Assembly: GCA_001898145.1 (NCBI GenBank) | Contig: MKSR01000017.1 | Span: 62,001-126,000, forward strand | Length of the DNA: 64,000 bases | Source of the DNA: Dyadobacter sp. 50-39 | GTDB taxonomy: Bacteria > Bacteroidota > Bacteroidia > Cytophagales > Spirosomataceae | Reading direction: 5' to 3' | Part shown: piece after piece, positions 6,142 through 21,491 of the stretch | Position numbering within the stretch: position 1 is the stretch's first letter | Layout of the letters: each line of letters begins with the position of its first letter | Notes under the pieces: generated by a model | What the model was told of the DNA's origin: nothing | What the model saw: the letters and a program-made list of their open reading frames with translations, nothing else | Database searches by the model: none | Translations under genes and position numbers: made by a program

Positions 6142-6891
6142 CTAATATGCTTTTCTAAGACTATCGGCAAACGCGTTGGGAAGCAGGCTCAGCTCAACAG
6201 CTTGCGCTGCTTTTTCGACATCGTATTTAACCCTGACAAACTCCACATGAACGGAGTCCTTTGACGTCAAGCCTGCTGACTGGTCGATTGTGAGAAGCAC
6301 ATAGCATGCACGCGCATCGCCATCCTTCGGCTTACCCACAGAACCTGTATTAATCAGGTGGTGGAAATGGTCAATACCGTCTTTACCTGAATTGATGATA
6401 CGATGATAAGGCTTGTGCGAGTGGCCAAAGCAAAGGATATCGGCCTTAAATTCCTTTACCAGTTCCACCATATAATCCTCTGGTAGCTCCTGCAACAAAT
6501 ACTCGTTGATGCTGCGCGGACTACCGTGAACAAGTAGCATGCTCAGCTGTTGATCATTGATCTGGAACTCTAATCTGAGGTGTCTGGGAAGTGTTAAGAG
6601 ATAATCCCTTTCCTTGTTTCCAATCAGCTTATAGGCGTATTCGCTGTTTTCTGCTTTGCTGCAATCGCCTTCGGAAGGAAGTACCTTTGAAACTTTCAGG
6701 TCGTGGTTCCCGGCTATGGTAGCGATTTCATGCTTACGGACTAGGCCGATTACCTGATTGGGCCACACATTATAGCCCACCAGGTCACCCAGGCAGTAGA
6801 CTGCGTCAGGATTTTGTGTATTCAGGTCTTCCAGCACCGCCTCAAAAGCTGGGAGGTTTGCATGGATATCAGATAGTAACGCTATTTTCAT
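6142..6891 (-). CDS. Metallophosphoesterase family protein (arsenic operon, copy 1)
   Basis: A 249-residue calcineurin-like phosphoesterase with the complete metal-binding set: DIH at 8-10, GDLVGY at 35-40, GNHD at 61-64, HGSPRSINEY, and GHSHKPYH near 160. These residues hold two metals and cleave phosphate esters or cyclic nucleotides in the family. Its start overlaps the stop of the upstream paralogue in an ATGA, so the two are translationally coupled. The closing VRVKYDVEKAAQAVE segment matches the paralogue. The substrate is unknown. Its place among arsenic genes suggests either signalling or repair of arsenate-damaged phosphate metabolites, which is inference. Confidence 0.88.
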   Translation of the reverse strand: MKIALLSDIHANLPAFEAVLEDLNTQNPDAVYCLGDLVGYNVWPNQVIGLVRKHEIATIAGNHDLKVSKVLPSEGDCSKAENSEYAYKLIGNKERDYLLTLPRHLRLEFQINDQQLSMLLVHGSPRSINEYLLQELPEDYMVELVKEFKADILCFGHSHKPYHRIINSGKDGIDHFHHLINTGSVGKPKDGDARACYVLLTIDQSAGLTSKDSVHVEFVRVKYDVEKAAQAVELSLLPNAFADSLRKAY

Positions 6892-7664
6892 TTTCCCTGA
6901 CGTAATGATTCCGCATAGGCATCCGGAAGGATGCTCTCTTCTACAGCCTTCGCCGCTTTTTCAACATCGTACTTAAAACGTATAAATTCAACGGTGATAC
7001 TTTCCTTGCTGGAAGTGGTTGCATCTGCATTAATATGAAGGATTACATAACCGCCCCGTGGATCTCCGTCTTTTGGTTTACCTACCGAGCCAATGTTGAT
7101 CGCATGACGGAAATAATCTGTTCCATCTTGCTGGACTGAGTCCAGAATTCTATGATAAGGTTTGTGCGTATGACCAAAAAGCATCACATCGGCACTGGCC
7201 TGCTCCATGATCCGTAGCATACTTTTTTCATCGCGATCTTCAAACAAGTACTCGTTGATCCGGCGGGGGCTGCCGTGTACCAGAAGCACTGACAGCGGCT
7301 TATCGTTAAGTTGAAAGTCCAGGCGGATATGTGCCGGCAGGGTTCTCAGATAAGCCCGCTGCTCGTCTTTGATGATTTCATTTGTATAGGCAATCGATAC
7401 TTTACCATTTTCTTTTTCGTCGTCTGTTTTGTAGGCGCAGCCGCAGTCATCGCTGCTTCTTCCGATTCCGAAGTCGTAATTGCCGGCAATAGTAGGGATT
7501 CCCCGCTTTCTGATCTGGTCTACAACTTCATTAGGCCAGATGTTATAACCGACCAGATCACCCAAACAATAAATAGCGTCGGTATCTCTGGATTCAACAT
7601 CTTTGAAAAACGCCTCCAATGCCGGAAGGTTGGCGTGAATATCTGAAAAAAGGGCAATTCTCAT
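6888..7664 (-). CDS. Metallophosphoesterase family protein (copy 2, GNHD changed to GNYD)
   Basis: A 258-residue paralogue of the next gene, with DIH at 8-10, GDLVGY at 35-40 and GHTHKPYH. The conserved GNHD motif instead reads GNYD (61-64), so the histidine that contacts phosphate in most family members is tyrosine here. Directly after it comes an insertion with DDCGC, absent from copy 1 and a possible thiol metal or metalloid site. Its start overlaps the arsO stop by one base (TAATG). The pair looks like duplication followed by divergence. The protein may have altered chemistry or bind rather than cleave; this is inference. Confidence 0.87.
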   Translation of the reverse strand: MRIALFSDIHANLPALEAFFKDVESRDTDAIYCLGDLVGYNIWPNEVVDQIRKRGIPTIAGNYDFGIGRSSDDCGCAYKTDDEKENGKVSIAYTNEIIKDEQRAYLRTLPAHIRLDFQLNDKPLSVLLVHGSPRRINEYLFEDRDEKSMLRIMEQASADVMLFGHTHKPYHRILDSVQQDGTDYFRHAINIGSVGKPKDGDPRGGYVILHINADATTSSKESITVEFIRFKYDVEKAAKAVEESILPDAYAESLRQGK

Positions 7665-8719
7665 TAATCATTATTTAAGTATTCAATAATTTCATTGACA
7701 GTCTGGCGTGCCGAGCGGCCTACGCCGATTAATGTTGCAGATGCAAAACCGGTGAAACTGCCATAACCCACCAGCCAGAGCCCGCTGAACTTCAAGGCCT
7801 TCGTTCCTTCACAGTCAACTTTGCCGTCTTGATTTAAGATGCCTAAGCCTTTCAGGTGCCTCGTTGCAAAGCCAAAACCGGTACACCAAATCACCACATC
7901 GAATGCTTGGCTTCTACCATCATGCCAGATGACGCCGTCTTCATAAAATTGCTTGAAGGTTCCGCGTGCTTGGAGCACACCGCGGTCGCGGGCCTGCTTT
8001 ACAGGCGGTACCATCACGATATTGCCTATATTGTACTGGGCCGCATTAAACTCCCTCCCTTCTTTCATTGCATGGTATTTGGCCGATGCCACATCAAAAA
8101 GCACCCTGCCATCCACATCATCAGGTAAGAATTGCGGCTCTTTGGCTGTTGTCCAAACCGTGGTTGCCAGCTTGGAAACTTCTGCCAGGATTTGCGCCCC
8201 GGAATTCCCTCCGCCGACTATTAACACGGATTTATCTTTGAATGGGAGCGGGTTTTTATACTGGGATGAATGCAGCTGCTGACCCGTAAACAAGTTCTTT
8301 CCTGGGATATCGGGAACAAACGGATTTCGAAAAGTGCCTGTAGCCGAGATAATCGCCCTGCTCTGATAATTTCCCTGGTCAGACTCTACCGTAAAAATGT
8401 CGCCCAACTTTTTGACACTGATTACCTTTGTATCGTGCTGTATTTGGATTTGGTACCTTCCCTGATAGGCGTTCAGATAATCAAGTACATGTTGTTTTGA
8501 CGGAAACCCGCTTCCAGATTTAGGCATCATCCAACCTGGCAGGGAGCTTTGCTCAGCGGGAGAAAACAGCGTAAGTGAATCCCAGCCGTGTTGCCATGCG
8601 CCGCCACCCTGGTGTTGGTCATCCAGGATGATATATTTCAGGTTTGTCCTGCGCAGAAAGTAGCCGCACGACAAGGCGCTTTGCCCGCCACCGATAATGA
8701 TTAGGTCAAATACCTCCAT
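7664..8719 (-). CDS. arsO: ArsO-type flavin-dependent monooxygenase
   Basis: A 351-residue two-dinucleotide-binding oxidoreductase. The FAD site is at the N terminus (IIIGGGQSALSCGYFLRR, about 6-23), the SATGTFRNP motif is near 125-133, the NADPH site VLIVGGGNSGAQI is near 165-177, and WCTGFGF lies near 280. This layout fits flavin-containing monooxygenases annotated as ArsO in arsenic operons, whose exact oxidation target is not settled. The start overlaps the membrane protein upstream by 14 bases and the stop overlaps the next start by one, so it is firmly inside the operon. Assignment as ArsO rather than another FMO rests on context. Confidence 0.85.
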   Translation of the reverse strand: MEVFDLIIIGGGQSALSCGYFLRRTNLKYIILDDQHQGGGAWQHGWDSLTLFSPAEQSSLPGWMMPKSGSGFPSKQHVLDYLNAYQGRYQIQIQHDTKVISVKKLGDIFTVESDQGNYQSRAIISATGTFRNPFVPDIPGKNLFTGQQLHSSQYKNPLPFKDKSVLIVGGGNSGAQILAEVSKLATTVWTTAKEPQFLPDDVDGRVLFDVASAKYHAMKEGREFNAAQYNIGNIVMVPPVKQARDRGVLQARGTFKQFYEDGVIWHDGRSQAFDVVIWCTGFGFATRHLKGLGILNQDGKVDCEGTKALKFSGLWLVGYGSFTGFASATLIGVGRSARQTVNEIIEYLNND

Positions 8720-9296
8720 AAGTCATCTGGCAGCAGTTCAATTTCTTGCAAGCCCGCTCATAAAGGGAGACCGGCTTCTTAAAGATCAGAGCAGCGTGGA
8801 AAATCCCCATCAATATTCCCCCGGGGATTAACTGCGTGACCAACCCGGTAAAAAAGCCGTATATGGGAAGGTTTGAAAAGGTGTCAATCAACACCAGGCC
8901 CTTAGGCGTTACGCGAAGCTTGATCACCAGGAAAACCGCAATGGAAGCAAAATGAAAGCCATTTACCATTAAATGGATAATGTATTCCCAACGGGGCAGC
9001 CCGCCCATAAATGCTCTACTGTCTTTTTCCATGTAGGCGTCAAAACCCAGTACGATAATGTCGACCGCGACCAAGAAAATGCCCACATAGAAAGCGAGAG
9101 CTGAGCTGCCCAGATAGAGAAAGAATAGGATCAGGGGAAATAGCAATGCTCTAATGGTATGGGTGATGTGCTCGTTTCTGCTCTCTGGGTGCAGGTAAAG
9201 TTTATACCGGACCAGGTGCAAATAAAAGCCGTCAAACATGGCAAGCAATGCAAAACTGATCAAAAGAATAATCGTTATTAAAAATGCAGTTTCCAT
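8706..9296 (-). CDS. His-rich multi-spanning membrane protein of arsenic operon
   Basis: A 196-residue protein of unknown function with about five or six hydrophobic segments. Histidines lie in or near these helices: FYLHLVRYKL (about 24-33), NEHITHTIRA, YIIHLMVNGFHFAS and MGIFHAALIF. A Cys pair (KKLNCCQM) lies close to the C terminus. It sits between acr3 (25 bases upstream) and arsO (14-base overlap), so co-expression is likely. The paired membrane histidines could bind haem or metal, which is only inference. I do not recognise a named family. Confidence 0.78.
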   Translation of the reverse strand: METAFLITIILLISFALLAMFDGFYLHLVRYKLYLHPESRNEHITHTIRALLFPLILFFLYLGSSALAFYVGIFLVAVDIIVLGFDAYMEKDSRAFMGGLPRWEYIIHLMVNGFHFASIAVFLVIKLRVTPKGLVLIDTFSNLPIYGFFTGLVTQLIPGGILMGIFHAALIFKKPVSLYERACKKLNCCQMTYGGI

Positions 9297-9321
9297 GCGT
9301 TAAGGATTGGGGTTGCAATAG

Positions 9322-10356
9322 TTAAACAGAAAACTTCTTTTGCTGTTTGAGCGCGAAATTGACCATCAGGATCAATACCGGCACTTCTATCAGCGGGCCA
9401 ATCACAGCGGCGAAGGCTGCGCCCGAATCAATACCGAATACCGCTATTGCGACCGCAATACCAAGCTCAAAATTGTTCCCTGCCGCAGTGAAGGCCAGCG
9501 ATGTTGATTTGGCATAATCCGCGCCCGCACGTTTTGAAAGGTAAAAGGCAGAGAAAAACATGACTGCGAAATAGATTGTCAGTGGCAGCGCGATGCGCAA
9601 CACGTCAAATGGTATGCTTACAATCAACTGCCCTTTCAAACTAAACATGACCACGATTGTGAACAGCAAAGCAACTAAGGTGATTGGGCTGATGGCCGGA
9701 AGGAATTTTTTCTCGTACCATTCTTTGCTAAACAGCCTGGTCAGTACGACCCTGGAAATAATACCCGCCAGAAATGGGATGCCCAGATAGATGAATACGC
9801 TTTGGGCGACCTGCCCGATGGTAATGTTAACTTCAAAACCTTTCAGTCCGAAGAGAGGCGGCAAAATCGTCACAAACACGTAGGCATATACCGAGTAAAA
9901 TAAGACCTGAAAAATGCTGTTGAAAGCTACCAGCCCTGCTGCGTACAAGCGGTCGCCATTAGCCAGGTCATTCCAGACAATGACCATTGCGATGCATCGA
10001 GCAATGCCGATCATAATTAGCCCGGTCATGTATTCTGGCTTATCTGGCAAAAAGATTACGGCCAGGCCAAACATCAGCAATGGGCCTATAATCCAGTTTT
10101 GAAACAGTGAGAGCCCCAAAATCTTGGTGTTGTTAAACACCTTCGGCAGCTCTGCATAGCGCACCTTTGCCAGGGGTGGGTACATCATCAGCACCAGGCC
10201 AATGGCTAGCGGCACGTTTGTCTGCCCTGAATTAAACTGATTGATGAAATCGGGTGTACCTGGCAAGAAATAGCCGATTGACACACCGGTAAGCATGGCT
10301 AAAAAGATCCATAAAGTCAGATAACGGTCTAAAAAAGAAAGCCGTGGGGTGTTCAT
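9322..10356 (-). CDS. acr3: ACR3-family arsenite efflux transporter
   Basis: A 344-residue inner-membrane permease with about ten hydrophobic helices that exports arsenite in exchange for protons. Family signatures are [17 protein letters not shown] at the N terminus, [12 protein letters not shown] near 57-68 and [11 protein letters not shown] near 125-135. The last contains the Cys that is needed for transport in characterised ACR3 proteins. [19 protein letters not shown] near 295 is the second conserved helix. Length is normal and no defect is visible. Its ATG overlaps the arsN2 stop by four bases (ATGA). Confidence 0.96.
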
Positions 10357-10802
10357 GCGTTTTGGTGCTTTAAATTACGTTTCATGACGACAGATGATGA
10401 AGGACAAAGACCGCTAAATTGCCTGGTTTGTTGAATTGCTTCTGGCACTTGCGCACGGTTTACAGCTATGAAACCATACCGGTCAAAGTAATGGTCAGCT
10501 GTGGTCGTGATCAAATAAACCTCTTGCAACCCCTGTTTGTCTGCACCCGCCAGAAGCCGCTCGACCATCTGGCCAGCAATACCTTTACCCTGGTGGACAG
10601 GCTTGACAGCAACTGAGCGCAGCAGCCCAACGAGCCCGAAGAGTTCAAGGCCTGCGACTCCAACAAGCGTCCCGTCTTGTTTTGCCAAAAGAAAATTGTG
10701 CAGGCTACCGGGTAAATCTTCGGTAAGTAGGTCAGCTTCTTCTAGTAAGCTGACCACCAATTCTTTTTCTTCCGGCCTGGCATTATCGATTTGAATGCTC
10801 AT
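10353..10802 (-). CDS. arsN2: ArsN2-like GNAT acetyltransferase
   Basis: A 149-residue GNAT-fold acetyltransferase. The acetyl-CoA loop is [14 protein letters not shown] (about 76-89), preceded by a beta strand LLRSVAVKP and followed by [16 protein letters not shown], the usual end of the fold. ArsN-type enzymes acetylate organoarsenicals or related amino-group toxins, giving resistance; the position between DUF6428 and acr3 supports that assignment. The 15-base gap upstream and four-base overlap downstream place it in the operon. The sequence alone would only justify GNAT acetyltransferase. Confidence 0.87.
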
Positions 10803-10817
10803 AATTTTTTAATTTGA

Positions 10818-11399
10818 TTAACAACATCCTGAACCAGGCTCACAGCACGCCGCCTCAGAAACGGCTAATTCCAGCTCCTCTTTAGCTGGGGCAGGCCCGC
10901 AGCATGAGGCTTCTGCGGATGTTGAGCCACAGCTTTGGTTGCGGGTGAGCGCCTTGCATTGGGTAAAGTCCGGAACAAGATTAACTGTGAATGTTTCGCT
11001 ATCGCTAACAAACTCACCCGGATACATCTGGCGCGTATCAAACTTTGAATTTCCGAATTCGATCTTAACAGTTGCTCCCGCATCCAAAGGAAGCGTTTTT
11101 TCAACCAGGTTGACAATTTTAAGTGCTTTGCCGACCTTCATGGAACGGTCCGCCTCCTTCACCGAAGGCTCCCAAAGCTGCACGATAATCTCTGTCCAGT
11201 TGTTCATTACCCCGCCGCAGTCCACCGAAACAATAGGTGCTTGCTTGATCTCGGTAATGTGGTAAGAACTGTCCACAAACTTGCCTTCTTCATACTGGAA
11301 TTGCAGATGTAAATCTGGGTTTTGTTCTAGAGTGCTTTTGAATTCACCCCAGGTCATCGGGCCGCGGGCGGCAGGATTTAATTGGCTCATGATTTCCAT
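10818..11399 (-). CDS. DUF6428-family protein with Cys-rich tail
   Basis: A 193-residue protein whose first 150 residues match DUF6428 as I know it: TWGEFKSTLEQNPDLHLQF, SYHITEIKQ, then VDCGGVMNNWTEIIVQLWE. Such proteins are frequent in arsenic operons but have no proven role. The last 45 residues carry Cys motifs (NQSCGS, ASCCGP, EAACCEPGSGCC), ten cysteines or so in all, ideal for trivalent arsenic binding. ATG 11399 or 11390 could be the start. It is the first gene after arsR, separated by 47 bases that hold an ArsR-type repeat. A scavenger or chaperone passing arsenite to Acr3 is a reasonable inference. Confidence 0.87.
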   Translation of the reverse strand: MEIMSQLNPAARGPMTWGEFKSTLEQNPDLHLQFQYEEGKFVDSSYHITEIKQAPIVSVDCGGVMNNWTEIIVQLWEPSVKEADRSMKVGKALKIVNLVEKTLPLDAGATVKIEFGNSKFDTRQMYPGEFVSDSETFTVNLVPDFTQCKALTRNQSCGSTSAEASCCGPAPAKEELELAVSEAACCEPGSGCC

Positions 11400-11410
11400 T
11401 GGTTAAATGT

Positions 11411-11428
11411 AATATTACGATTGATATT
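11411..11428. promoter_or_regulatory. Candidate ArsR operator A
   Basis: AATAT-TACGATTG-ATATT, a hyphenated dyad between arsR and the DUF6428 gene. The core TTACGATTGAT recurs exactly in the region upstream of the phosphatase gene (11858-11868). Function inferred from repetition and position. Confidence 0.5.
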
Positions 11429-11446
11429 TTCAAAAAAATACCCTGC

Positions 11447-11779
11447 TTAATTACAGCAGGATGTAGCAAGGGCAAACGTGTCGAGCAACGAGCCAAACGT
11501 TTTTTGTGCTTCCTCCCATACGACTGGGTTAATGCAATAGCATACCCGTGGTGGGTTAATTTCACCCTGGATAATTCCGATCCGTTTCAGCTCTTTCAAA
11601 TGCTGGGATACTGTTGCTTGGGCAAGTTCGAGCTCATCGACCAGGTCACCACAAACACAGGCTTTCCTTGCAATCAGCAGTTGCAGAATCGCAACCCTGG
11701 CCGGATGCGAGAACGCTTTGGCCAGATCCGCAATCCGGTTCTGCTGCTCGGTGAATATTTCAGTTTTGGTTACTCCCAT
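11447..11779 (-). CDS. arsR: ArsR-family metalloid-responsive repressor
   Basis: A 110-residue winged-helix repressor. The segment KACVCGDLVDELELAQATVSQHL (residues about 40-62) joins the CxCxDL metal-sensing helix of ArsR to its recognition helix. Further cysteines lie in VCYCIN and at the C-terminal TSCCN. In ArsR proteins trivalent arsenic binds such cysteines and releases the operator. It heads the arsenic operon and is divergent from the phosphatase gene at 11895, with operator-like dyads between them. Start ATG 11779 sits just after a TATATTTG -7 box. Confidence 0.95.
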   Translation of the reverse strand: MGVTKTEIFTEQQNRIADLAKAFSHPARVAILQLLIARKACVCGDLVDELELAQATVSQHLKELKRIGIIQGEINPPRVCYCINPVVWEEAQKTFGSLLDTFALATSCCN

Positions 11780-11783
11780 GCTG

Positions 11784-11791
11784 CAAATATA
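11784..11791 (-). promoter_or_regulatory. arsR promoter -7 box
   Basis: On the minus strand this reads TATATTTG, matching the Bacteroidota TAnnTTTG element, immediately upstream of the arsR start codon. Confidence 0.6.
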
Positions 11792-11814
11792 AGTCTCATT
11801 TTTTCAATTGCAAT

Positions 11815-11828
11815 ATTACGATAGTAAT
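11815..11828. promoter_or_regulatory. Candidate ArsR operator B
   Basis: ATTAC-GATA-GTAAT, a perfect five-base dyad in the divergent arsR/phosphatase interval, sharing TTACGAT with sites A and C. It lies upstream of the arsR -7 box in the expected -33 zone. Confidence 0.55.
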
Positions 11829-11848
11829 TTTTTTGTCTGACAAAATCT

Positions 11849-11864
11849 ATCGTATCTTTACGAT
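11849..11864. promoter_or_regulatory. Candidate ArsR operator C over promoter of phosphatase gene
   Basis: ATCGTA-TCTT-TACGAT, a perfect six-base dyad. It covers a TATCTTTA -7-like box (11853-11860), and a TTTG lies 17 bases further upstream, so bound repressor would block this plus-strand promoter. The gene start follows at 11895. Confidence 0.6.
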
Positions 11865-11894
11865 TGATTTAACAACAACCTACTACAATACGAT

Positions 11895-12596
11895 ATGAAT
11901 CTGATCAATTTACTCATTATGACCATTTTGACCACTGCTGTAACTATGCCATCTCACAAACCTGATGATGAGAAAAACGTTAACCCAAAGCTGTCTACCT
12001 ACATTAACACTATTAAAGAGGATTTCTCTAAAATACCCGACGACCGAAGACAAGAACTTGACAAGATTGCGCTATTCATCCAAAAGCAAATAACTGCTCG
12101 CCAGCCGGTGCAGCTGACCTACATCTGCACCCACAATTCTAGACGCAGCCATTTTGGACAGATTTGGGCTGCTGCTGCGGCTGCTTACTATAATATCCCC
12201 AATGTGAAAACATATTCTGGCGGCACTGAGACCAGCGCGTTCAATGAACGGGCGGTTGCTGCCTGTGAACGGGCCGGTTTTGAAATTACGAAAACCTCAG
12301 AAGGTAAAAACCCTGTCTATAATGTAGGCTATACTGCCGATAAAGAGCCTCTTAAAGCTTTCTCAAAGAAATATGATGACAATAGCAATCCCCAAAGCAA
12401 TTTCTGCGCGATAATGACCTGTTCGCAAGCCGACAAAGCTTGCCCAGCTGTAAAGGGTGCTATTGCCAGGGTTGCTGTCCCTTATGATGACCCGAAAGAA
12501 TTTGATGGTACACCGCAGGAAACAGCTAAATACGACGAGCGTTGCAGACAGATCGCAACAGAAACGTTGTATGTTTTTTCAAAAGTTAAAATCTGA
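11895..12596 (+). CDS. Low-molecular-weight phosphatase / ArsC-like protein
   Basis: A 233-residue protein of the low-molecular-weight tyrosine phosphatase fold, to which thioredoxin-linked arsenate reductases belong. The catalytic loop is CTHNSRRSH (about residues 77-85), the C-x5-R-S pattern. A second conserved segment is YSGGTETSAFNERAVAA, and the acid loop region VPYDDPKEFDG occurs near 197. Extra cysteines (FCAIMTCSQADKAC) may act as redox partners, as in ArsC. The hydrophobic N terminus (about 1-17) could be a signal or anchor, unusual for ArsC. Divergence from arsR and the dyad over its promoter support an arsenate-reducing role. Confidence 0.85.
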   Translation: MNLINLLIMTILTTAVTMPSHKPDDEKNVNPKLSTYINTIKEDFSKIPDDRRQELDKIALFIQKQITARQPVQLTYICTHNSRRSHFGQIWAAAAAAYYNIPNVKTYSGGTETSAFNERAVAACERAGFEITKTSEGKNPVYNVGYTADKEPLKAFSKKYDDNSNPQSNFCAIMTCSQADKACPAVKGAIARVAVPYDDPKEFDGTPQETAKYDERCRQIATETLYVFSKVKI

Positions 12597-14342: not shown

Positions 14343-15080
14343 TCATCCTAACTCCTTCGCCGATTTTGCTCCCTTGCTACGCAACCATTCAACCAGGTCG
14401 TTTGCACATTCTCGCAGTGCAGCGTCCAGCGGTGATAAATTTTCCCAATCTGGTATCCAATTTATATTGGCCCCCCTTCCAAGTAAGAAAGCAGCTGTTA
14501 TTTTTTGTCCACCATGGCAGGAAGCCCAAAAAGCCCGGTCAATCTCCTGCGCCTCCGGTTGTGAATTTTCATTGAAATAACCTTCCAGCCGATCCATTAG
14601 GCCAAGGGTAGCAGCATCCGTTAAATTAGTGCGTGCTCCTAGTTGTACAAGACGGTGTGCCGCATTCCATTGCCCGAAAGCTCTTGCATCAGTAAGTGGA
14701 GTTCCCCCGGCGATGACCGCGCCTTCGGCTTCTATATTTGCTCCGGCATTGATTAGAGCATCAAGCGCTTCAATATCATCGCTACTTGCAGCCCAATGTA
14801 ATGGCGTCTCAATATGCGGCCCAGTAAATTGGGCATTTACATCTGCGCCGGCTTCAACAAGCTTTTTGATTGTTAGTGCGATATTAGGATAGTGACCTGG
14901 CCAGTCTGTGGCTACATGTAGTAAAGTACGCGACATTCCACAAGGGTCATTATCGCCAAGCCTTGCTTTGGATAAGCCGGGATTTTCGGCCAGTAATTTT
15001 GTAAGTTTTGGTATATCTCCTGTCTGAATAGCTTTGACTACTGCAACCGCAATAGGATCACGGGTATCAATGTAGTTCAT
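14343..15080 (-). CDS. Ankyrin-repeat protein
   Basis: I choose ATG 15080 (MNYIDTRDPIAVAVVKAI); a longer frame upstream overlaps the preceding gene. The protein of about 245 residues is built of ankyrin repeats, seen as TLLHVATDWPGHYPN, LVEAGADVNAQF, TPLHWAASSDDIEALDALINAGANIEAE, TPLTDARAFGQWNAAHRLVQLGA and a final SPLDAALRE repeat. Ankyrin proteins bind other proteins; the partner is unknown. It starts ten bases after the GDCCVxC gene, so it seems to be the last gene of the mercury-type operon. It is often seen as a stand-alone gene, so its link to metals is uncertain. Confidence 0.88.
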   Translation of the reverse strand: MNYIDTRDPIAVAVVKAIQTGDIPKLTKLLAENPGLSKARLGDNDPCGMSRTLLHVATDWPGHYPNIALTIKKLVEAGADVNAQFTGPHIETPLHWAASSDDIEALDALINAGANIEAEGAVIAGGTPLTDARAFGQWNAAHRLVQLGARTNLTDAATLGLMDRLEGYFNENSQPEAQEIDRAFWASCHGGQKITAAFLLGRGANINWIPDWENLSPLDAALRECANDLVEWLRSKGAKSAKELG

Positions 15081-15090
15081 TATAATAGGC

Positions 15091-15300
15091 TTAATTGCAA
15101 CAGCTTCTTTGCTCCTGAATCGGCGGGCATTTTGTAGACCCATAAGAACAGAAAACACAGCAATCGCCGGTTAATGGTTTCAATACAAGCTTGCAAGAAG
15201 TACATTCATAAAAATACATACAAGCGTCCGTGGGCATAGTTTCTGCTTCATTATGTCCACAATTCGGGCATGTAATTACAGATTCAAGTATGGCGACCAT
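15091..15300 (-). CDS. GDCCVxC-family small Cys-rich protein
   Basis: A 69-residue protein with a zinc-ribbon-like CPNCGH (11-16), a CTSC pair (33-36) and the family motif GDCCVFCSYGSTKCPPIQ (45-62). The family is annotated as a GDCCVxC (seleno)protein because some members carry selenocysteine in the motif; here the codons are ordinary cysteine. It begins one base after the merTP stop region and is followed ten bases later by the ankyrin gene. A thiol-based role in mercury or other soft-metal handling is likely from context, but no activity is proven. Confidence 0.88.
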   Translation of the reverse strand: MVAILESVITCPNCGHNEAETMPTDACMYFYECTSCKLVLKPLTGDCCVFCSYGSTKCPPIQEQRSCCN

Positions 15301-15301
15301 C

Positions 15302-15892
15302 TTAAAGAGTTTTTGTGCTTGTTACTTTATAACCGGTCGCGTCGACAGCTTTTTTAATATCAGCAATCGAAGTTTTCTTACTATCAAATTTCACGGTGGC
15401 CGCCCCTTTTTGGTAGGAGACATCAACCTGTGAAACTCCCTTCAGTTTGGCAACCTCCTTTTTGATGTGATGCTCACAGCTTTCACAAGACATTCCTTTT
15501 ATGGTCACATAGGCCACTTTTTGCGGCCCATCCTGCGCTGGTTGTAAAACTTCCTGTGCCTTCTCTTGGTATAGTAGGTTTGAATAAGACGGGAAGGTTA
15601 ATAATAGTAATGCCAGTCCAGTTATTATGCCTAAAAACGCCTTTGTTTGCCAGAAGGATGTTTTGTTAGTATCGCACATGCAATCTTTCATTTTGTTACT
15701 TTTTAATTGATTATACCATGCCCAACCCAGTGCCCCAATCGTCAAGGCGATGCTATATGGACGAAATGATTCAAGCCAAACAAGCCCACTGGCTGAACCA
15801 GAAATACCAAATATTACCGCCAACAGCGGAACTGTGCAGCAGAGCGAAGAAGCAAAGGCAGTGAGGAGTCCAATCAATCCTGTCGTTTTCAT
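15302..15892 (-). CDS. merTP: MerTP mercuric transport fusion protein
   Basis: A 196-residue fusion. The N-terminal part is MerT-like with three hydrophobic segments. The first holds the vicinal pair SSLCCTVPLLAV (about 16-27) that accepts Hg(II), and a cytoplasmic loop carries a second site, MKDCMCDTN. The last 70 residues form a MerP-like HMA domain with GMSCESCEHH, the periplasmic metal-binding CxxC. In MerTP the two act together to carry Hg(II) inward for reduction. No MerA is visible in the window, so the fate of the ion is unclear. It lies 12 bases after the ArsR/SmtB regulator. Confidence 0.92.
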   Translation of the reverse strand: MKTTGLIGLLTAFASSLCCTVPLLAVIFGISGSASGLVWLESFRPYSIALTIGALGWAWYNQLKSNKMKDCMCDTNKTSFWQTKAFLGIITGLALLLLTFPSYSNLLYQEKAQEVLQPAQDGPQKVAYVTIKGMSCESCEHHIKKEVAKLKGVSQVDVSYQKGAATVKFDSKKTSIADIKKAVDATGYKVTSTKTL

Positions 15893-15904
15893 AGTTCAAT
15901 TTTT

Positions 15905-16303
15905 CTAATTTAGGCTAACCGATAACTCTGACGACGTCTGTAAAGTTGTGAGATATCCTAAAATCAAATTCAAAATATCAGTGGATTCGTCCCGGAGGGA
16001 ATAAAACACCGTTTGGCCAACTTTTCTCGCCTCAATAAGTTGCGCATCTTTAAGCTTACGTAAGTGCTGGGAAACGGCTGGAATGGTCATTCCCAAAATG
16101 TCGGACAAATCGCAGACGCATAGGTCATTTTCTTCCCGCAGGAGATAGATGATTTTTAAACGGTTTTCGTTTCCTGCTAAGTCTAAAACCTGAGACAATC
16201 GCCCAAAAGACGGCTGAAACTCATTTATCCTTTTCGTGTATTGCTGAATTTTGTCCTGATCTTCGTAAATCCGGACACAACCTTGTTGGTCGCTCATAAT
16301 CAT
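15905..16303 (-). CDS. ArsR/SmtB-family metal-responsive repressor of mer operon
   Basis: A 132-residue winged-helix repressor. The motif NDLCVCDLSDILGMTIPAVSQHLRKL (about 59-84) combines the CxCDL sensor helix with the recognition helix, and there is an extra N-terminal Cys (QQGCVRIYED). It heads the merTP operon, so it is the probable local mercury or soft-metal sensor, in place of the usual MerR. A perfect eight-base inverted repeat lies upstream (16337-16360) and is a good operator candidate. It differs clearly from the arsR at 11447. Confidence 0.92.
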   Translation of the reverse strand: MIMSDQQGCVRIYEDQDKIQQYTKRINEFQPSFGRLSQVLDLAGNENRLKIIYLLREENDLCVCDLSDILGMTIPAVSQHLRKLKDAQLIEARKVGQTVFYSLRDESTDILNLILGYLTTLQTSSELSVSLN

Positions 16304-16336
16304 CTATGTATTAGGGTGTAAATTTAACCAATTTAA

Positions 16337-16360
16337 GTATTTAAGCAAATAATTAAATAC
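16337..16360. promoter_or_regulatory. Candidate operator of ArsR/SmtB regulator
   Basis: GTATTTAA, eight-base spacer, TTAAATAC: a perfect inverted repeat 34 bases upstream of the ArsR/SmtB start at 16303. Arm sequence and size fit SmtB-like operators in general form. Confidence 0.6.
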
Positions 16361-16471
16361 ACGACGTTGGTTTTTCCGCTTGCGGACTTCGAAAATGAGG
16401 CCAGAAGCCTTGCTCATCCAAATCGTAGATACCTCAGATTCTGACAAAAACATTAACAACTAGTGAAACGC

Positions 16472-16891
16472 CTACATTTTTTCAGAAATAAGGTCTGTTG
16501 TGAGCATGGGGCAATTTTCGCGGTCATCATCCGGTGTACAGCAGCTCAGGCAATTTTCGACACCTGACTGCATCAAAGTCCTGAGCTCGATGAGCTGCAT
16601 TATTTTCTGATCAATCAAGGTTACTTTTTCGGAGATCTTCACAGAGACATTTCCACAGGATGCTTGCTTGTTTTCGATCATCGTCAAGAAATCTGCGGTT
16701 TCATTTAACGTGAAACCAAAGCTCTTTATACGCTTGATCTGAAGAAGCCTTTCGCGGGTTCTCTCTGAATATTCTTTGTAGTTGTTAAATCGCCTCTCTT
16801 TGCGGCCAACTGCAATGAGACCCTGTTTTTCGTAGAACCGTATCGTGTCACGGGACAGTCCGGTTTGTTTTGATAATTCGCCGATCAGCAT
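16472..16891 (-). CDS. MerR-family metal-responsive activator
   Basis: A 139-residue MerR protein. The N-terminal DNA-binding domain is typical (MLIGELSKQTGLSRDTIRFYEKQGLI), followed by the dimerisation helix (about 80-112). Metal ligands can be placed: C79, C114, C117, C118 and C127. C79 plus a CC pair nine residues before the last Cys resembles ZntR, and the C118-C127 spacing is also that of MerR itself. The CPML ending after C127 agrees. It is divergent from the membrane protein at 16966, with its operator between them. A second copy of that operator drives the opposing operon at 19580, so this is probably the master regulator of both. Confidence 0.93.
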   Translation of the reverse strand: MLIGELSKQTGLSRDTIRFYEKQGLIAVGRKERRFNNYKEYSERTRERLLQIKRIKSFGFTLNETADFLTMIENKQASCGNVSVKISEKVTLIDQKIMQLIELRTLMQSGVENCLSCCTPDDDRENCPMLTTDLISEKM

Positions 16892-16914
16892 GTGAAAATT
16901 TTTGATTTGATTTC

Positions 16915-16948
16915 TTGACAGTGGACTATACTCCGTGGTTTACATTTA
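16915..16948 (+). promoter_or_regulatory. MerR-type promoter/operator, copy 1
   Basis: TTGACA (16915-16920), then the dyad TGGACTATACTCC, then TACATTTA (16941-16948) as -7 box. The 20-base spacer with a central dyad is the hallmark of MerR-activated promoters. The ATG follows at 16966. The same layout is found in reverse at 19591-19624. Confidence 0.82.
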
Positions 16949-16965
16949 CAATTTAAAAACATATC

Positions 16966-17232
16966 ATGAAAAGTAGAAAAAGCCTTTGGATGGCCATAAT
17001 AGGTATCTTTGCCTGCGCGGCCTGCTGCGCATTTCCTGTCTTTGCTTCATTGGCCAGTATCTCGATGATGGCCCTTGCGGCAGGTTGGGTGAAAATTGCT
17101 GTTGTGTTACTGGCGGTCACAGCCTTGATCTGGATCCTTTTCCTCCGAAAAAAGAAGATAAACCGGGCAGTATGCGGCACAGATTGCAATTGTAAACCTA
17201 AACAATGCGGGGCACATGCTGCCGCCGATTAA
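16966..17232 (+). CDS. Small membrane protein with CC pair, MerR-regulated
   Basis: An 88-residue protein with two hydrophobic helices (about 8-30 and 38-60). The first contains FACAACCAFPVF, a vicinal Cys pair followed by Pro, very like the metal-accepting helix of MerT and MerF. The C-terminal tail is positively charged and then Cys-rich (AVCGTDCNCKPKQCGAHA), a probable metal-binding tail. It is transcribed from the MerR-type promoter just upstream and is followed four bases later by a YnfA gene. It may be a short mercury or other soft-metal permease. I do not recognise an exact named family. Confidence 0.82.
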   Translation: MKSRKSLWMAIIGIFACAACCAFPVFASLASISMMALAAGWVKIAVVLLAVTALIWILFLRKKKINRAVCGTDCNCKPKQCGAHAAAD

Positions 17233-17236
17233 TTTT

Positions 17237-17566
17237 ATGGTCGTAATAAAATCTTTACTGGTCTTCATTTTGGCCGGGCTTTGTGAAATTGGGGGAGGGT
17301 ACCTGATCTGGTTATGGCTCAAAGAAGACAAGCCACTTTGGTTTGGGATCCTTGGTGGTATTATCCTGGCTTTATATGGCGTCGTAGCAACCCTGCAACC
17401 GGCAGGGTTTGGCCGCGTCTATGCCACCTATGGCGGTATTTTCATTGTGATGGCCCTGATCTGGGCCTGGCAGGTGGATGGGTTCAGGCCCGACAAATAC
17501 GACCTGATCGGATCCGTGGTCGCGCTCATTGGTGTCTGTATCATATATTATGCACCGCGCCCGTAG
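17237..17566 (+). CDS. YnfA/UPF0060-family small multidrug-type membrane protein
   Basis: The start is ATG 17237 (MVVIKSLLVFILAGLCEIGGGYLIWLWLK), four bases after the preceding stop. The 109-residue product has four hydrophobic helices and the family hallmarks GLCEIGGGYL, LYGVVATLQPAGFGRVYATYGG and DKYDLIGSVVALIGVCIIYY. YnfA proteins are related to small multidrug resistance exporters and contain the membrane glutamate (E17 here) typical of proton-coupled export. Its pairing with the CC membrane protein suggests a role in metal or toxic-cation export under MerR control. Confidence 0.92.
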   Translation: MVVIKSLLVFILAGLCEIGGGYLIWLWLKEDKPLWFGILGGIILALYGVVATLQPAGFGRVYATYGGIFIVMALIWAWQVDGFRPDKYDLIGSVVALIGVCIIYYAPRP

Positions 17567-17575
17567 CAAAAAGTT

Positions 17576-17601
17576 AAAGCGCCCCAGAATCGGGGCGCTT
17601 T
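17576..17601. terminator. Bidirectional terminator between converging operons
   Basis: A perfect ten-base stem, AAAGCGCCCC (17576-17585) with GGGGCGCTTT (17592-17601), followed on the plus strand by a T-rich run. It lies between the ynfA stop (17566) and the converging thioredoxin-like gene stop (17606). Confidence 0.88.
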
Positions 17602-17605
17602 CGTT

Positions 17606-18223
17606 TTAGGCCTTCTTCCACTTAATGCCACAACCAATCGCTTTTGCAGTCGGAACAGCCACGGGCTGGTCGGTCAACAATGCACTGACAGCATTTCGAA
17701 CATACTTCTGACTTGCCTGCTCTCCATCCTGGGCATTGTTATCGATCGCGCCGATGTATTTGACAATAAAGTCGCTTCCTTGGCGCTGGACTACAAAAAC
17801 CGTCGGTGTGTGCATGGCCCCAAATGCCTTGGCTACTTGTTGGGTTTCATCTGTCAAATACGGAAATGCATATTTCTTTTCAGATGCGCGCTTCTTCATT
17901 TCTTCGTAGCTGTCACCCGGCGAAAGCTGACCGTCATTGGCATTGATAGCAATGACTGGATAACCTTTCTGTTCAAACTGCTTATTGAGGTCGATCACCC
18001 GCTGTTCATACGCCTGGGCAACCGGGCAGGTGTTACAGGTAAAGACGACAATGTAGCCCTTGACGTTTTTGTCGGAAGCCAGTGAAACGCTTTTGCCATC
18101 AATATTTTTCAAGGAAAAGTCTGTGGCTTTGTCCCCAACCTGGTAGCCAGGCATTGAAATCGAAAATGCGCTGATCGCTAAAAATGCAACCCCTGCGGCA
18201 ATTGAAAAAATGGATGTTTTCAT
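17606..18223 (-). CDS. Exported thioredoxin-like/redoxin protein
   Basis: A 205-residue protein with an N-terminal signal peptide (MKTSIFSIAAGVAFLAISAFS). The body is an AhpC/TSA-type thioredoxin fold: VGDKATDFSLKNIDG, then VVFTCNTCPVAQAYEQRV with CNTC as active-site pair (about residues 63-66), and the cis-proline region GAMHTPTVFVV. Such proteins reduce disulfides or peroxides outside the cytoplasm. It is the last gene of a minus-strand operon, 12 bases after a TlpA-like gene, and is presumably induced by the MerR regulator. An extra Cys (IGCGIKWKK) near the end is typical of this subgroup. Confidence 0.9.
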   Translation of the reverse strand: MKTSIFSIAAGVAFLAISAFSISMPGYQVGDKATDFSLKNIDGKSVSLASDKNVKGYIVVFTCNTCPVAQAYEQRVIDLNKQFEQKGYPVIAINANDGQLSPGDSYEEMKKRASEKKYAFPYLTDETQQVAKAFGAMHTPTVFVVQRQGSDFIVKYIGAIDNNAQDGEQASQKYVRNAVSALLTDQPVAVPTAKAIGCGIKWKKA

Positions 18224-18235
18224 GTCTTATTTATT

Positions 18236-18730
18236 TTATTGAATAAATGGTTTTAGCTCAGCGGTCAGCTCAGCTTCGGTGAAGGGTTTTTCAAAACCCC
18301 TTTTCATCTTGTTTTTTGTATTGATAATCAACGTGAACGGCAGTGCGCCAGACCATTCGGGAGACACTTTGTCAATCCATGCATTATAATCCGTCTCGTC
18401 CAGTAAAAGGACTTCGGCCGATTTGATCCCCTTCCTTACAATAAAGGGCTCCACCTTTTTTTTAAGCTGAGAAGCAGCATCCAGGCTTACCAAAATGACC
18501 TTCACTTGGCCGGAACCATACTGAGCGGCAATTTTTTCAAAATGAGGTATCTCTGCTACGCAAGGCGCGCACCATGTTGCCCAGAAATTGACAATCAGAA
18601 CTGAGTCTCCGGCCTGGTCAAGGATCTTTTGTAGCTCGGGATATTTGATGATCCGTATTTGCTGGGAATAGCTGACCTCTCCTATCAAAATGAATAATAG
18701 GATAAACAGCCATTTAGGATATAAAACCAT
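18236..18730 (-). CDS. TlpA-like thiol-disulfide oxidoreductase
   Basis: A 164-residue exported thioredoxin-fold protein. A hydrophobic N terminus (about 5-22) ends near SYSQQ. The active site is VNFWATWCAPCVAEIPHFEKI (WCAPC at about residues 53-57), and GALPFTLIINTKNK holds the cis-proline. It should reduce disulfides or metal-bound thiols in the periplasm. It lies between the small Cys-rich gene and the second thioredoxin-like gene in the MerR-type operon. Two reductases together suggest a need to keep the adjacent Cys proteins reduced. Confidence 0.92.
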   Translation of the reverse strand: MVLYPKWLFILLFILIGEVSYSQQIRIIKYPELQKILDQAGDSVLIVNFWATWCAPCVAEIPHFEKIAAQYGSGQVKVILVSLDAASQLKKKVEPFIVRKGIKSAEVLLLDETDYNAWIDKVSPEWSGALPFTLIINTKNKMKRGFEKPFTEAELTAELKPFIQ

Positions 18731-18766
18731 AAACGGGATTTAGAGTTTGTAGAATTATGTCATACT

Positions 18767-19105
18767 TTAAGCAGGTACAATCATCCGTGGCGGGTGCCAA
18801 AACTCAAAGAGGGGCGAATAGTAAAGTTTATGAACCTTGGCAGAATGCCGCACAAACCCGGCAGGTTGCCGATCAACCTGAAAAGAAAATTCTGAAATCA
18901 ATACAGCAGCGCAAGTGGAACACCCATAGAAAGGGTTAGTTAACTCCTTGTCAGCAGCTTTTTTCGAAGGTGCTAAAGGGGCTGCCTTTTTGCAGCATTG
19001 CATGCAGCCCTTTTTTGCGGACGCAGCGTCATTGCTTGTCCCTACCGCAGGTAAGAGCGATAACAGCAAGACGCAGCAGGCCAACATCAGGGCTAATAAC
19101 TTCAT
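18767..19105 (-). CDS. Small exported Cys-rich protein
   Basis: Start ATG 19105 gives a 112-residue protein with a signal-like helix (MKLLALMLACCVLLLSLLPAVG). The mature part has KKGCMQCCKKA (about 33-43), then FYGCSTCAAVLIS, and ends SPLFEFWHPPRMIVPA. The cysteine clusters suggest metal or disulfide chemistry outside the cytoplasm. It resembles small Bacteroidota proteins that lie next to metal or copper genes, but I cannot name the family with certainty. It lies 52 bases after the CCPW gene and 36 bases before the TlpA-like gene, in one apparent transcript. Confidence 0.72.
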   Translation of the reverse strand: MKLLALMLACCVLLLSLLPAVGTSNDAASAKKGCMQCCKKAAPLAPSKKAADKELTNPFYGCSTCAAVLISEFSFQVDRQPAGFVRHSAKVHKLYYSPLFEFWHPPRMIVPA

Positions 19106-19157
19106 ATTATTAATTTTCAACACTAAAGGTATGCATTTATACCCTTTTTGAAAACCC

Positions 19158-19580
19158 TCATCGTGATTTTGGAAGCTTGTCAAGCTCCATGACCAAATAG
19201 ACCATTTGCTTTGTTTCCTGGGAATCTCCCATTCTCAGGGAAATGGGTCCTTCTTCCGGTTGAAAGGTTAGATGAAAAATAAGCCAGGGGCAGCATAGCC
19301 GTTCAAACTTGATGAACTCTGACAAGTCACTAATCATCACATTGTCTGCCTGGTCAAATACCAGTTCATAGCTGTCGGTATGCTCGACATGCCGGGACAC
19401 TTTTTTAAATAAGGTCTGATGTAGCTCGTTCATTCGCTTGATCTGGTTTTTATCCGTCAACTTGCAAGCCAATGTGATCTTCTTTTTTAATTCCGTTTCC
19501 ATGGTTTTTGACATTGGCGCTTGCGCGCTGCCTGAAAGCCAGGCAAGGCAAGCAAATACCGTTATAACCAGTGCTTTCAT
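19158..19580 (-). CDS. Exported CCPW-motif protein, MerR-regulated
   Basis: Start ATG 19580, directly behind the MerR-type promoter; the in-frame extension upstream would run into the promoter. The 140-residue product has a signal peptide (MKALVITVFACLAWLSGSAQA). Its hallmark is FIKFERLCCPWLIFHLTFQPEEGPISLRM (about 87-115). The FERxCCPF-like motif belongs to a family of unknown function seen near merR-type genes. The vicinal Cys pair before Pro is a likely soft-metal site. It is the first gene of the minus-strand operon leading to two thioredoxin-like proteins. Confidence 0.8.
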   Translation of the reverse strand: MKALVITVFACLAWLSGSAQAPMSKTMETELKKKITLACKLTDKNQIKRMNELHQTLFKKVSRHVEHTDSYELVFDQADNVMISDLSEFIKFERLCCPWLIFHLTFQPEEGPISLRMGDSQETKQMVYLVMELDKLPKSR

Positions 19581-19590
19581 GTTTTTATGA

Positions 19591-19624
19591 CAAAGATAAA
19601 CCGTGGAGTATAGTCCATTGTCAA
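19591..19624 (-). promoter_or_regulatory. MerR-type promoter/operator, copy 2
   Basis: On the minus strand: TTGACA, one base, TGGACTATACTCC, two bases, GGTTTA, with TATCTTTG as a perfect -7 box. The spacer is 20 bases, as in copy 1 at 16915. Nearly every base of the shared 34-base block agrees, and the ATG of the CCPW gene follows at 19580. Confidence 0.85.
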
Positions 19625-19910
19625 GCGTTTTTTTTGGCGGTATGCAAACCACTGTTATGCCTAACCACGGAATTACAATTTAACCAGTCACATTTTAAAT
19701 TTAATGTCCCGGAAACATCACCGGATAAGTCATCGGCGGATAAAAACCGCTTTGCATCAAAATTTTCAAATTGCACTTAAACGACCTTTTTAGCATGCTC
19801 TAATCTCTTTTTATCTCATTTCAAATGCCTCATTTTCAATTAGTTAATCGTGATATCAATTTCAAATCATCAAGGAACTGGTTCGACATTTGTTCCGTTG
19901 CGGGTACGGA

Positions 19911-19944
19911 AGCCCTTCAACGAAAGTTGAGGGGCTATTTTTTT
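19911..19944. terminator. Hairpin terminator beside globin gene
   Basis: AGCCCTTCAAC (19911-19921) pairs with GTTGAGGGGCT (19926-19936) around a GAAA loop, with one G-T pair, then seven T on the plus strand. It lies just past the globin stop. The T run favours plus-strand use, though no plus-strand gene is seen upstream. Confidence 0.7.
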
Positions 19945-19950
19945 GGCCTA

Positions 19951-20436
19951 TCACATATACGGCCCGCCCGGTACGCCCCAGCCCCATTTCGGCATCGGCT
20001 CATCGGGGTTCATTGGCAGTTCGTCGGTGTTGGAGTTGATGACCGCGATGCGTGTGCCCCATTCGATATAGGCCATGAAGGCTGACCGGAATTCCGGATC
20101 GTCGGGGAGGCCGATTTCGTCGGCTGTTTCCAGCAATAGTGAAACCCAGCACTTGCGGTGTTCTTCGGTGAGATGTTTACTCAAATGTTTTTGGATCATT
20201 TTAAAATGGCTTCCCTCCGTCGTGCTATACCACTCCGGGCCACCCATTACTTCGGCCACAAAGTGTGCCACATGCAATTGATGCTCCGGGGACATATGTT
20301 TAAAAACCGGCTCCAAAAGTGCGTCTTTCAATACCTTTTGGTAAAACAGCTCGGTCAGCTTTTCGAAAACGGGCATTCCTCCTGCCCATTGATAAAGTGT
20401 AGGAATTTCGGTGTTTTGTAGCATGTCAGTGGACAT
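19951..20436 (-). CDS. Group II truncated haemoglobin
   Basis: ATG 20436 starts a 161-residue globin. Family features are TLYQWAGGMPVFEKLTELFYQKVLKD at the N terminus, FKHMSPEHQLHVAHFVAEVMGG, and HFKMIQKHLSKHLTEEHRKCWVSLL, where the proximal haem histidine is expected. These fit a group II 2-on-2 haemoglobin, which binds oxygen or nitric oxide. A Pro/Trp-rich tail (MPKWGWGVPGGPYM) is typical of this subgroup. Its start shares one base with the stop of the upstream glycosyltransferase-like gene (TGATG), so they are probably co-translated. Confidence 0.93.
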   Translation of the reverse strand: MSTDMLQNTEIPTLYQWAGGMPVFEKLTELFYQKVLKDALLEPVFKHMSPEHQLHVAHFVAEVMGGPEWYSTTEGSHFKMIQKHLSKHLTEEHRKCWVSLLLETADEIGLPDDPEFRSAFMAYIEWGTRIAVINSNTDELPMNPDEPMPKWGWGVPGGPYM

Positions 20437-21491
20437 CAAAGCATCCCGGCTTCGTGGATGACCAGTTCAACGGCGTCGCTTTTGCGTTCGGTTACGGTAA
20501 TATCGGGGACAGAAGTCCATAGCCTGGACAAATAACGTTTGTAAACCAGGTATCTGATTACATTTGCTTTTAGAAATGTATCGATTAACCGCTTTCTTAT
20601 CAGGCGTTTATACATTGCTTTGTAGCGCACATCAAAACGCTCTTTGAGGGTAGAATCGCAGAAAAAATCAGATAAATTTACGTCGCTTGTTTTACTATAA
20701 ACACCGTTTGGCGTAATCATAAAATCGCCCGTTACTCTGTTCAGAATATCGATATCCCGCTTTTGAAGATGGATATACATAAATTCATCGCGGTGAATAT
20801 GTCCATTGCTCAAAAAATAACGGTAAAGCACCCCATTTTCCCAAGCGAATATCTGTGAAGTATAATTATTGCTGCCCAATTTGTCCATGCGGTATTGGAA
20901 AGTATGGGGTGCGACATCAGCGATCCAGGTTTGATTAAAATAGCACTTTAACCCCGATTTCTGTCCGATATAAGGCATAATGCGTTCATCCGTACCTTGG
21001 TTCATATCCCAATTGAGCACGTTCTCAACCGACGAATATTCAAAACATTTTTCGTAGAGCCTGTTACAGACCTGGTTATTGCGGACGATCGTGAGGTGCC
21101 CCCAGCGCTGAATGATATCATATTCACGCAGAATGTCGGGGGTCAGGAAATTGGAAAGGTTTCCGAAAAAAACGTCCATATCGCAGAATCCCCAAAAATC
21201 GTATCCATCCAGGTAATCTTCAAAAATAGCGCCATACAATGGCCGGAAGTCGCAAAATTTGTAGGCACTATTAATTTTTACTTCAAGATTCAGCCTGGCA
21301 AATATGAACTTGCTTAATGTAGCTATATCCTCAAAATAAAAACAGCTCACATTGTCTGCGAGGTTGACAGGAAGGTCCTGATCGCTTATAATCAACCAAT
21401 TAAATTCGGGATTGGCCTGACAAGTTTTCAGCCAAAGATCGAAGTTAGATGGCAGCTTACCGAAGTAAGGTACTATAAATACGACTTTCAC
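20436..21491 (-). CDS. DUF6625-like putative glycosyltransferase
   Basis: I place the start at GTG 21491 (VKVVFIVPYFGKLPSNFDLW); a TTG further upstream adds only a short hydrophobic stretch. The product of about 351 residues has a nucleotide-sugar-transferase-like core: CDFRPLYGAIFEDYLDGYDFWGFCDMDVFFGNL, where CDMD looks like a DxD sugar-nucleotide metal site. This matches the DUF6625 family as I recall it. It is AT-rich like the island and unlike the GC-rich cluster that follows. The target glycan is unknown. Confidence 0.78.
   Translation of the reverse strand: MKVVFIVPYFGKLPSNFDLWLKTCQANPEFNWLIISDQDLPVNLADNVSCFYFEDIATLSKFIFARLNLEVKINSAYKFCDFRPLYGAIFEDYLDGYDFWGFCDMDVFFGNLSNFLTPDILREYDIIQRWGHLTIVRNNQVCNRLYEKCFEYSSVENVLNWDMNQGTDERIMPYIGQKSGLKCYFNQTWIADVAPHTFQYRMDKLGSNNYTSQIFAWENGVLYRYFLSNGHIHRDEFMYIHLQKRDIDILNRVTGDFMITPNGVYSKTSDVNLSDFFCDSTLKERFDVRYKAMYKRLIRKRLIDTFLKANVIRYLVYKRYLSRLWTSVPDITVTERKSDAVELVIHEAGML

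Follow-up and report, generated by a model that had tools for sequence, protein, structure and literature searches.

Regulators of the MerR family act at overlong promoters, which the bound protein distorts so that RNA polymerase can use them (PMC1526738, PMC5027573). The described operators differ in their palindromes: that of proteobacterial MerR is TCCGTAC-4-GTACGGA within 19 bp, that of firmicute MerR is a 9-4-9 palindrome within 20 bp, and that of ZntR is a 22-bp palindrome within 20 bp (PMC1526738). In Tn501 MerR, Hg is bound by C82, C117 and C126 (PMC5027573). Promoters of Bacteroidota carry a -7 element with the consensus TAnnTTTG (PMC9723704, PMC7366714), and mer operons of Bacteroidetes have been reported with ArsR-like regulators (PMC3466566). 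Here we describe a locus of Dyadobacter sp. 50-39 (assembly GCA_001898145.1; 7.7 Mb in 48 contigs) where a merR gene adjoins one of two nearly identical operator-promoter blocks, which face each other across two converging operons. The window, the whole stretch of DNA that was analyzed, covers 64,000 nucleotides (positions 62001–126000 of contig C17, MKSR01000017.1). Sequence comparison gives good support for a MerR-activated regulon of two converging operons. We think it probable, with considerable room for doubt, that this regulon serves a thiophilic metal(loid), Hg(II) being the first candidate, and that it needs no adjacent merA. Its features, from left to right, are:

16472–16891, minus strand: MerR-family regulator, 139 aa, with C79, C118 and C127 at the spacing of Hg-type MerR, plus C114 and C117.
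16915–16948, plus strand: P1 operator-promoter block (TTGACA, 22-bp dyad, TACATTTA), serving the MerF-like/YnfA operon, within the gap to the divergent merR.
16966–17232, plus strand: MerF/MerT-like Cys-rich membrane protein, 88 aa, recognized by profile comparison.
17237–17566, plus strand: YnfA/UPF0060 protein, 109 aa (PF02694 158.5 bits, NF002586 151.8 bits, both over cut-off).
17576–17601, no strand assigned: hairpin common to both convergent operons (z -3.76 and -3.69 on the two strands; terminator-like call on the minus strand).
17606–18223, minus strand: redoxin/AhpC-TSA-like protein with a CxxC (C63, C66), C198 and, by eye, an N-terminal signal-like stretch.
18236–18730, minus strand: TlpA/ResA-like thioredoxin-fold protein (C54/C57).
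18767–19105, minus strand: Cys-rich small protein with 7 Cys, exported as judged by eye, with no family match.
19158–19580, minus strand: CCPW protein, 140 aa; C39, C96 and C97 are invariant in 22/22 aligned relatives.
19591–19624, minus strand: P2, the second block copy (TTGACA, dyad, TATCTTTG), serving the CCPW operon.

The TTGACA of P1 starts at 16915 on the plus strand and that of P2 at 19624 on the minus strand, and each is followed after 20 bp by a -7 box (TACATTTA and TATCTTTG, respectively). Taken as an inverted pair (16914–16947 and 19592–19625), the two copies are 85% complementary over 34 nt, that is, 29/34 identical, whereas the best inverted 34-mer in single-base shuffles of 15001–20500 (n = 20) reached 22 to 26. 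The string TGGACTATACTCC occurs exactly twice in the window; when two mismatches were allowed, two more places were listed, one of which is the same site on the opposite strand. Across the whole genome the block pattern matched P1 and P2 only, and a reversed control pattern matched nothing. The merR gene is divergent from the first P1 gene, with 74 bp between them, and the P1 and P2 operons converge on a 39 bp gap that holds the hairpin. A preliminary description of this window had claimed the twin blocks, their 20-base spacers with TAnnTTT(A/G) -7 boxes, the gene order of both operons, their common end and all five MerR cysteines; each of these was recovered in our analysis.

Positions 4–25 of the block form a 22-bp dyad. 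Its consensus, ACAGTGGACTATACTCCACGGT, was derived from 31 sites (25 distinct) found across the family and in a single genome from outside it. Palindromic matches average 18.0/22; with the frame displaced by a single base, they average 6.1 and 5.3. The sites were selected by a pattern; therefore, only the free columns of that pattern are independent evidence for the dyad. These columns are A21, C22 and G24, conserved in 24, 21 and 24 of the 25 distinct sites, and each of them completes the dyad. Comparison of the sites establishes the operator. MerR-family promoters are described as having a spacer of 19–20 bp with an inner palindrome (PMC1526738); the blocks of the window have 20 bp and the 22-bp dyad. 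If the -12 to -5 box rule (PMC9723704) holds, the leaders would be ∼6 nt for P2 and ∼13 nt for P1. The operator strings had no match in the open-licence papers searched.

The ZntR regulon has the same layout, and there is a partial resemblance in the bases. Identities to the ZntR operator ACTCTGGAGTCGACTCCAGAGT amount to 14/22 for P1, 15/22 for P2 and 15–16/22 for the relatives, levels reached by about 0.8% (14/22) and 0.1% (15–16/22) of random perfect palindromes. This suits a ZntR/CadR-like system, in which MerR would sense Zn, Cd or Pb and the operons would buffer the metal in membrane and periplasm. In the same direction, the ZntR model scores level with the MerR model for the window regulator, and at locus L084 merR has a Cd-family P-type ATPase as its neighbor. 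However, the regulator falls under the ZntR cut-offs, zntA and cadA are absent from the module, and mercury-transport-like genes stand there instead: the transport protein is MerF/MerT-like and, as detailed below, MerTP is linked at 13/25 places. We consider a Zn, Cd or Pb sensor rather unlikely.

The block recurs in the family (Spirosomataceae). In the Dyadobacter genome and its relatives the pattern was found in 10/149 genomes, 6 of them with a facing pair; relaxed to permit up to two mismatches, it was found in 23/222 family genomes from 8/36 genera, with none for the control. CCPW homologues occur in 31/222 family genomes, and block and CCPW occur together in 22 (Fisher p 3.5e-22, genome relatedness ignored). 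The preliminary description had staked its reading on the block being present near homologous genes elsewhere, and this is what was observed: 22/23 block genomes carry CCPW, and at 29/30 block sites it is no more than 2.4 kb away. A sample of 395 genomes from the phylum contains CCPW relatives in 10 and the block in 2, namely the Dyadobacter genome itself and G361, a member of another family in which the block precedes a CCPx (CCPW-like) gene with MerR adjoining. One relative, G045 (L018 8960–8992), has a perfect orphan block with no module genes around it, which may be a relic or a new target. This lone block and the near identity of the two copies in the window would fit leftover copies of a duplication or mobile repeat that form no regulatory pair. 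The similarity between P1 and P2 stops at the promoter edges, however, and the block has persisted in 8/36 genera, and once outside the family, at module genes in nearly every case; we consider an origin as mere repeats highly improbable.

The arrangement of the genes varies among relatives. Facing promoters were found in eight genomes (G000, G006, G009, G022, G036, G046 and the Larkinella genomes G598 and G600); the second block copy has three mismatches in Larkinella, and in G036 MerR and YnfA are each split over two frames. Four others (G580, G610, G613, G624) have a single operon of MerF-like, YnfA, CCPW-type and redoxin genes behind one block, with MerR divergent. The pair in the window therefore looks like what was once a single operon, which has been split, with one part inverted and the promoter duplicated. 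In Spirosoma and its neighbors, a second type of MerR is divergent from the block and CCPW. The block between MerR and CCPW in G645 (L087 7941–8020) is one dyad-core base short, giving a 19-bp spacer, and thus offers a test of spacing made by nature.

The helix-turn-helix domain of the window MerR scores over cut-off (PF13411 50.3 bits, PF00376 43.4 bits), and its closest sequence match in the PDB is 4ua1 (E 4.6e-16). By alignment, C79, C118 and C127 have a spacing equivalent to that of the three Hg-binding cysteines of Tn501 MerR. Over nine aligned MerR rows, C79, C114 and C118 are present in 9/9 and C127 in 5/9. The regulator stays far under the cut-offs of the curated MerR, ZntR and CueR models: 80.6 bits against 150.85 for MerR (TIGR02051), 81.0 against 143 and 80.1 against 167.95 for ZntR (NF007069 and TIGR02043), and 80.1 for CueR. 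The two types of MerR that adjoin the block in family genomes are 35–39% identical and have in common the helix-turn-helix and wing residues SRDTIR, YEK and RRxNNYKEY; these are absent from the other two proteins with a MerR_1 domain in the Dyadobacter genome. Comparison in this way links the operator to MerR as well as to the module genes.

The first product of the P1 operon was described in the preliminary account as a "CC membrane protein". Its relatives (n = 7), searched at E up to 1, matched the MerTP model in 7/7 cases (best 1.3e-8; window protein 6e-4), MerF in 4/7, MerE in 3/7 and MerT in 3/7, with a best MerF E of 0.0021. No curated cut-off was passed, that of MerF (NF033565) included, and the window protein itself gave no MerF match at E up to 1. 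A PDB profile search from the relatives placed MerF chains at ranks 1–4 (best E 4.6e-4), and hhalign against MerTP gave E 6.5e-11 with CC aligned on CC. Profile comparison thus establishes a likeness to MerF, including the two-helix architecture with a CC pair. The protein resembles MerF/MerT transporters in the CC pair of the first membrane helix, the Cys-rich tail and the profile match, but differs in falling under the curated MerF cut-off and in its additional tail cysteines; C70, C74 and C76 are invariant in 7/7. Its partner belongs to the same UPF0060 family as YnfA of Shigella flexneri, whose study concerned SMR-type efflux of ethidium bromide and acriflavine; in the text searched, that study makes no mention of metal, mercury or arsenic (PMC9295541).

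The surroundings of merR point to mercury. The gene adjoins an arsR-merTP-GDCCVxC operon:

15905–16303, minus strand: ArsR/SmtB regulator of the adjacent merTP operon (NF033788 over cut-off).
15302–15892, minus strand: MerTP fusion for mercuric transport (NF033556 240.9 bits, cut-off 180).
15091–15300, minus strand: GDCCVxC domain protein (NF041374 over cut-off).

For the linkage counts, MerTP was scored only when over cut-off, and two YnfA entries were left out: the second fragment of the split gene in G036 and a sub-cut-off match in G085. MerTP is present in 43/222 family genomes and in 18/31 CCPW genomes; 13/25 of its places in the latter are within 5 kb of CCPW. YnfA is present in 24/222 family genomes, 16 of them with CCPW, and 17/18 of the places counted in CCPW genomes are within 2.1 kb of CCPW. 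In four loci (L027, L030, L031, L098) YnfA lies downstream of ArsR, MerTP and GDCCVxC on the same strand. Compared with a canonical mer operon, the module shares the MerR-type regulator, the overlong spacer with a palindrome, the MerF/MerT-like protein and merTP next door. It differs in having no merA, in an operator that is not TCCGTAC-4-GTACGGA (PMC1526738), and in its extras: YnfA, CCPW, the Cys-rich peptide, TlpA and redoxin. With a MerF/MerT-like CC membrane protein and an arsR-merTP-GDCCVxC operon next to merR, the module is of mercury type, and its make-up is not wholly undescribed. The preliminary reading is thus supported as to a MerR-type regulon of two converging operons and corrected as to its undescribed make-up. 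The further claim that it lacks merA is true of the module, where family searches of the window proteins found no MerA, and not of the genome. Among 80 genomes examined, MerA was over cut-off in one, the Dyadobacter genome itself, on contig C27. There (L125 6835–14661), ArsR, MerTP, a short HMA protein and MerA (501 bits) are followed by resolvase- and Tn3-transposase-like genes (by eye), which makes a second and probably mobile mer operon.

A scan of 22 CCPW members gave no convincing Pfam or NCBIfam match, and the structure predicted from 22 sequences (pLDDT 81) has no clear relative. The Cys-rich peptide has weak relatives (25% identity, E 2e-3 to 7e-3) near the MerTP clusters of other genera (L029 3499–3837, L101 2413–2739).

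Relatives of CCPW and its neighbors also occur on plasmids of other phyla. Ten plasmid records matched CCPx, and seven of them were read. Profiles recognized CCPx in 7/7 (E 3e-33 to 5e-12) and a MerF-like protein in 2/7 (E 3e-13, 4e-12). On the Paenibacillus plasmid, YnfA and MerR share one strand and diverge from MerF-like and CCPx genes. The Peribacillus plasmid has MerR divergent from MerF-like and CCPx genes, flanked on one side by merA-merR1 with an "arsenic resistance protein" and on the other by Tn3 genes. In Cytobacillus, MerR and CCPx stand with a permease annotated as a bile acid:sodium symporter, and the profile detected no MerF-like frame in that record. Rhodococcus ruber has a MerR-CCPx fusion (L130 4506–5297) adjoining a permease of the same symporter type, and Halomarina has CCPx with such a permease. 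The long frame that gave a MerF-like match in Rhodococcus (E 0.0012) overlaps that of the permease, and the match was taken as chance. The gap upstream of MerR in each of the three Bacillota records contains TTGACT, 19 bp with a palindrome, and then TATACT, TATGAT or TACACT. Such comparison shows that relatives of the gene set recur across phyla, mostly without MerA.

The window also has an arsenic cluster (6142–12596) with ACR3 (440.5 bits) and ArsO (514.1 bits), both over cut-off (7664–10356). Inspection by eye adds two metallophosphoesterase-like genes, a GNAT gene, an ArsR-like gene (11447–11779) and an arsenate-reductase-like gene. This cluster and the MerR module together form a metal(loid) island; a transposase-like gene (by eye) lies at the left window edge (12–1532). 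The over-cut-off ACR3 and ArsO genes raise the alternative of an arsenic or organoarsenical module, in which MerR would sense As(III) or methylarsenite, CCPW would trap it and YnfA would help its export. Two Adhaeribacter plasmid records, which have arsenite methyltransferase, ACR3, CCPx and YnfA in a row, agree with this, as do the BASS- or ACR3-type permeases adjoining CCPx in Cytobacillus, Rhodococcus, Halomarina and Peribacillus. On the other hand, the membrane protein encoded behind P1 is like those of mercury transport, merTP is the immediate neighbor, and the ars cluster of the window has, by eye, its own ArsR. We judge an arsenical inducer of this kind to be distinctly unlikely.

Several observations weigh against assigning the module to mercury. 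The operator is like the ZntR consensus (14–16/22), the NCBIfam models leave the metal undecided, and the second type of MerR lacks C127 (4/9 rows). CCPx and YnfA are found in the arsenic clusters of the two Adhaeribacter records and near Cd-type P-ATPases (L084; L077 by eye). MerTP is not over cut-off in 8/23 block genomes, and no MerA over cut-off was found in 22/23 block carriers, although with 17 candidates scored per genome a lower-ranked MerA could escape. Nor is the link between block and CCPW complete: 9/31 CCPW genomes have no block. In G086, G632 and G651 the genes are intact, and for G632 and G651 no block was found in 15 kb; the others are G645 with its shortened block, G608, which starts at a contig end, fragments (G007, G051, G635) and a weak match (G537). 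For the inducer, we would allot mercury about one half of the probability and most of the rest to Zn, Cd and Pb or to arsenicals.

If the mercury reading is correct, we infer that MerR would occupy both P1 and P2. Metal bound at C79, C118 and C127, perhaps with C114, would untwist the overlong promoters and turn both operons on together. From P1, the MerF-like protein may move a metal thiolate at the inner membrane, and YnfA may remove the metal or a lipophilic derivative. From P2, the exported CCPW could trap metal with its three cysteines, and the Cys-rich peptide could also bind it; TlpA and redoxin would maintain usable thiols. The module would act alongside arsR-merTP-GDCCVxC and would need no adjacent merA.

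Among the open-licence papers inspected on YnfA with mercury, arsenic, MerR or metal resistance and on MerTP/GDCCVxC, none describes the module. We tentatively propose, as a possibility that we hold well short of an expectation, an undescribed MerA-independent resistance system of Bacteroidota and Bacillota with MerF-like, YnfA and CCPx proteins under a MerR switch. In it, CCPx would be a three-thiol receptor, joined to a MerR domain in Rhodococcus, and YnfA would export the metal or a lipophilic organometal. What deserves an experiment is the gene set with YnfA and CCPx that is found across phyla, in most cases lacking MerA. Bacteroidota promoters are unlike those of E. coli, and the comparison gives this phylum a defined MerR-type operator. 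Two families of unknown or other role, YnfA/UPF0060 and CCPx, the latter having no model, become tied to resistance against thiophilic metals. The reason for Mer-type transport genes in genomes without MerA also becomes testable. If the proposal is true, UPF0060 would gain a metal(loid) role and the presence of those transport genes would be explained.

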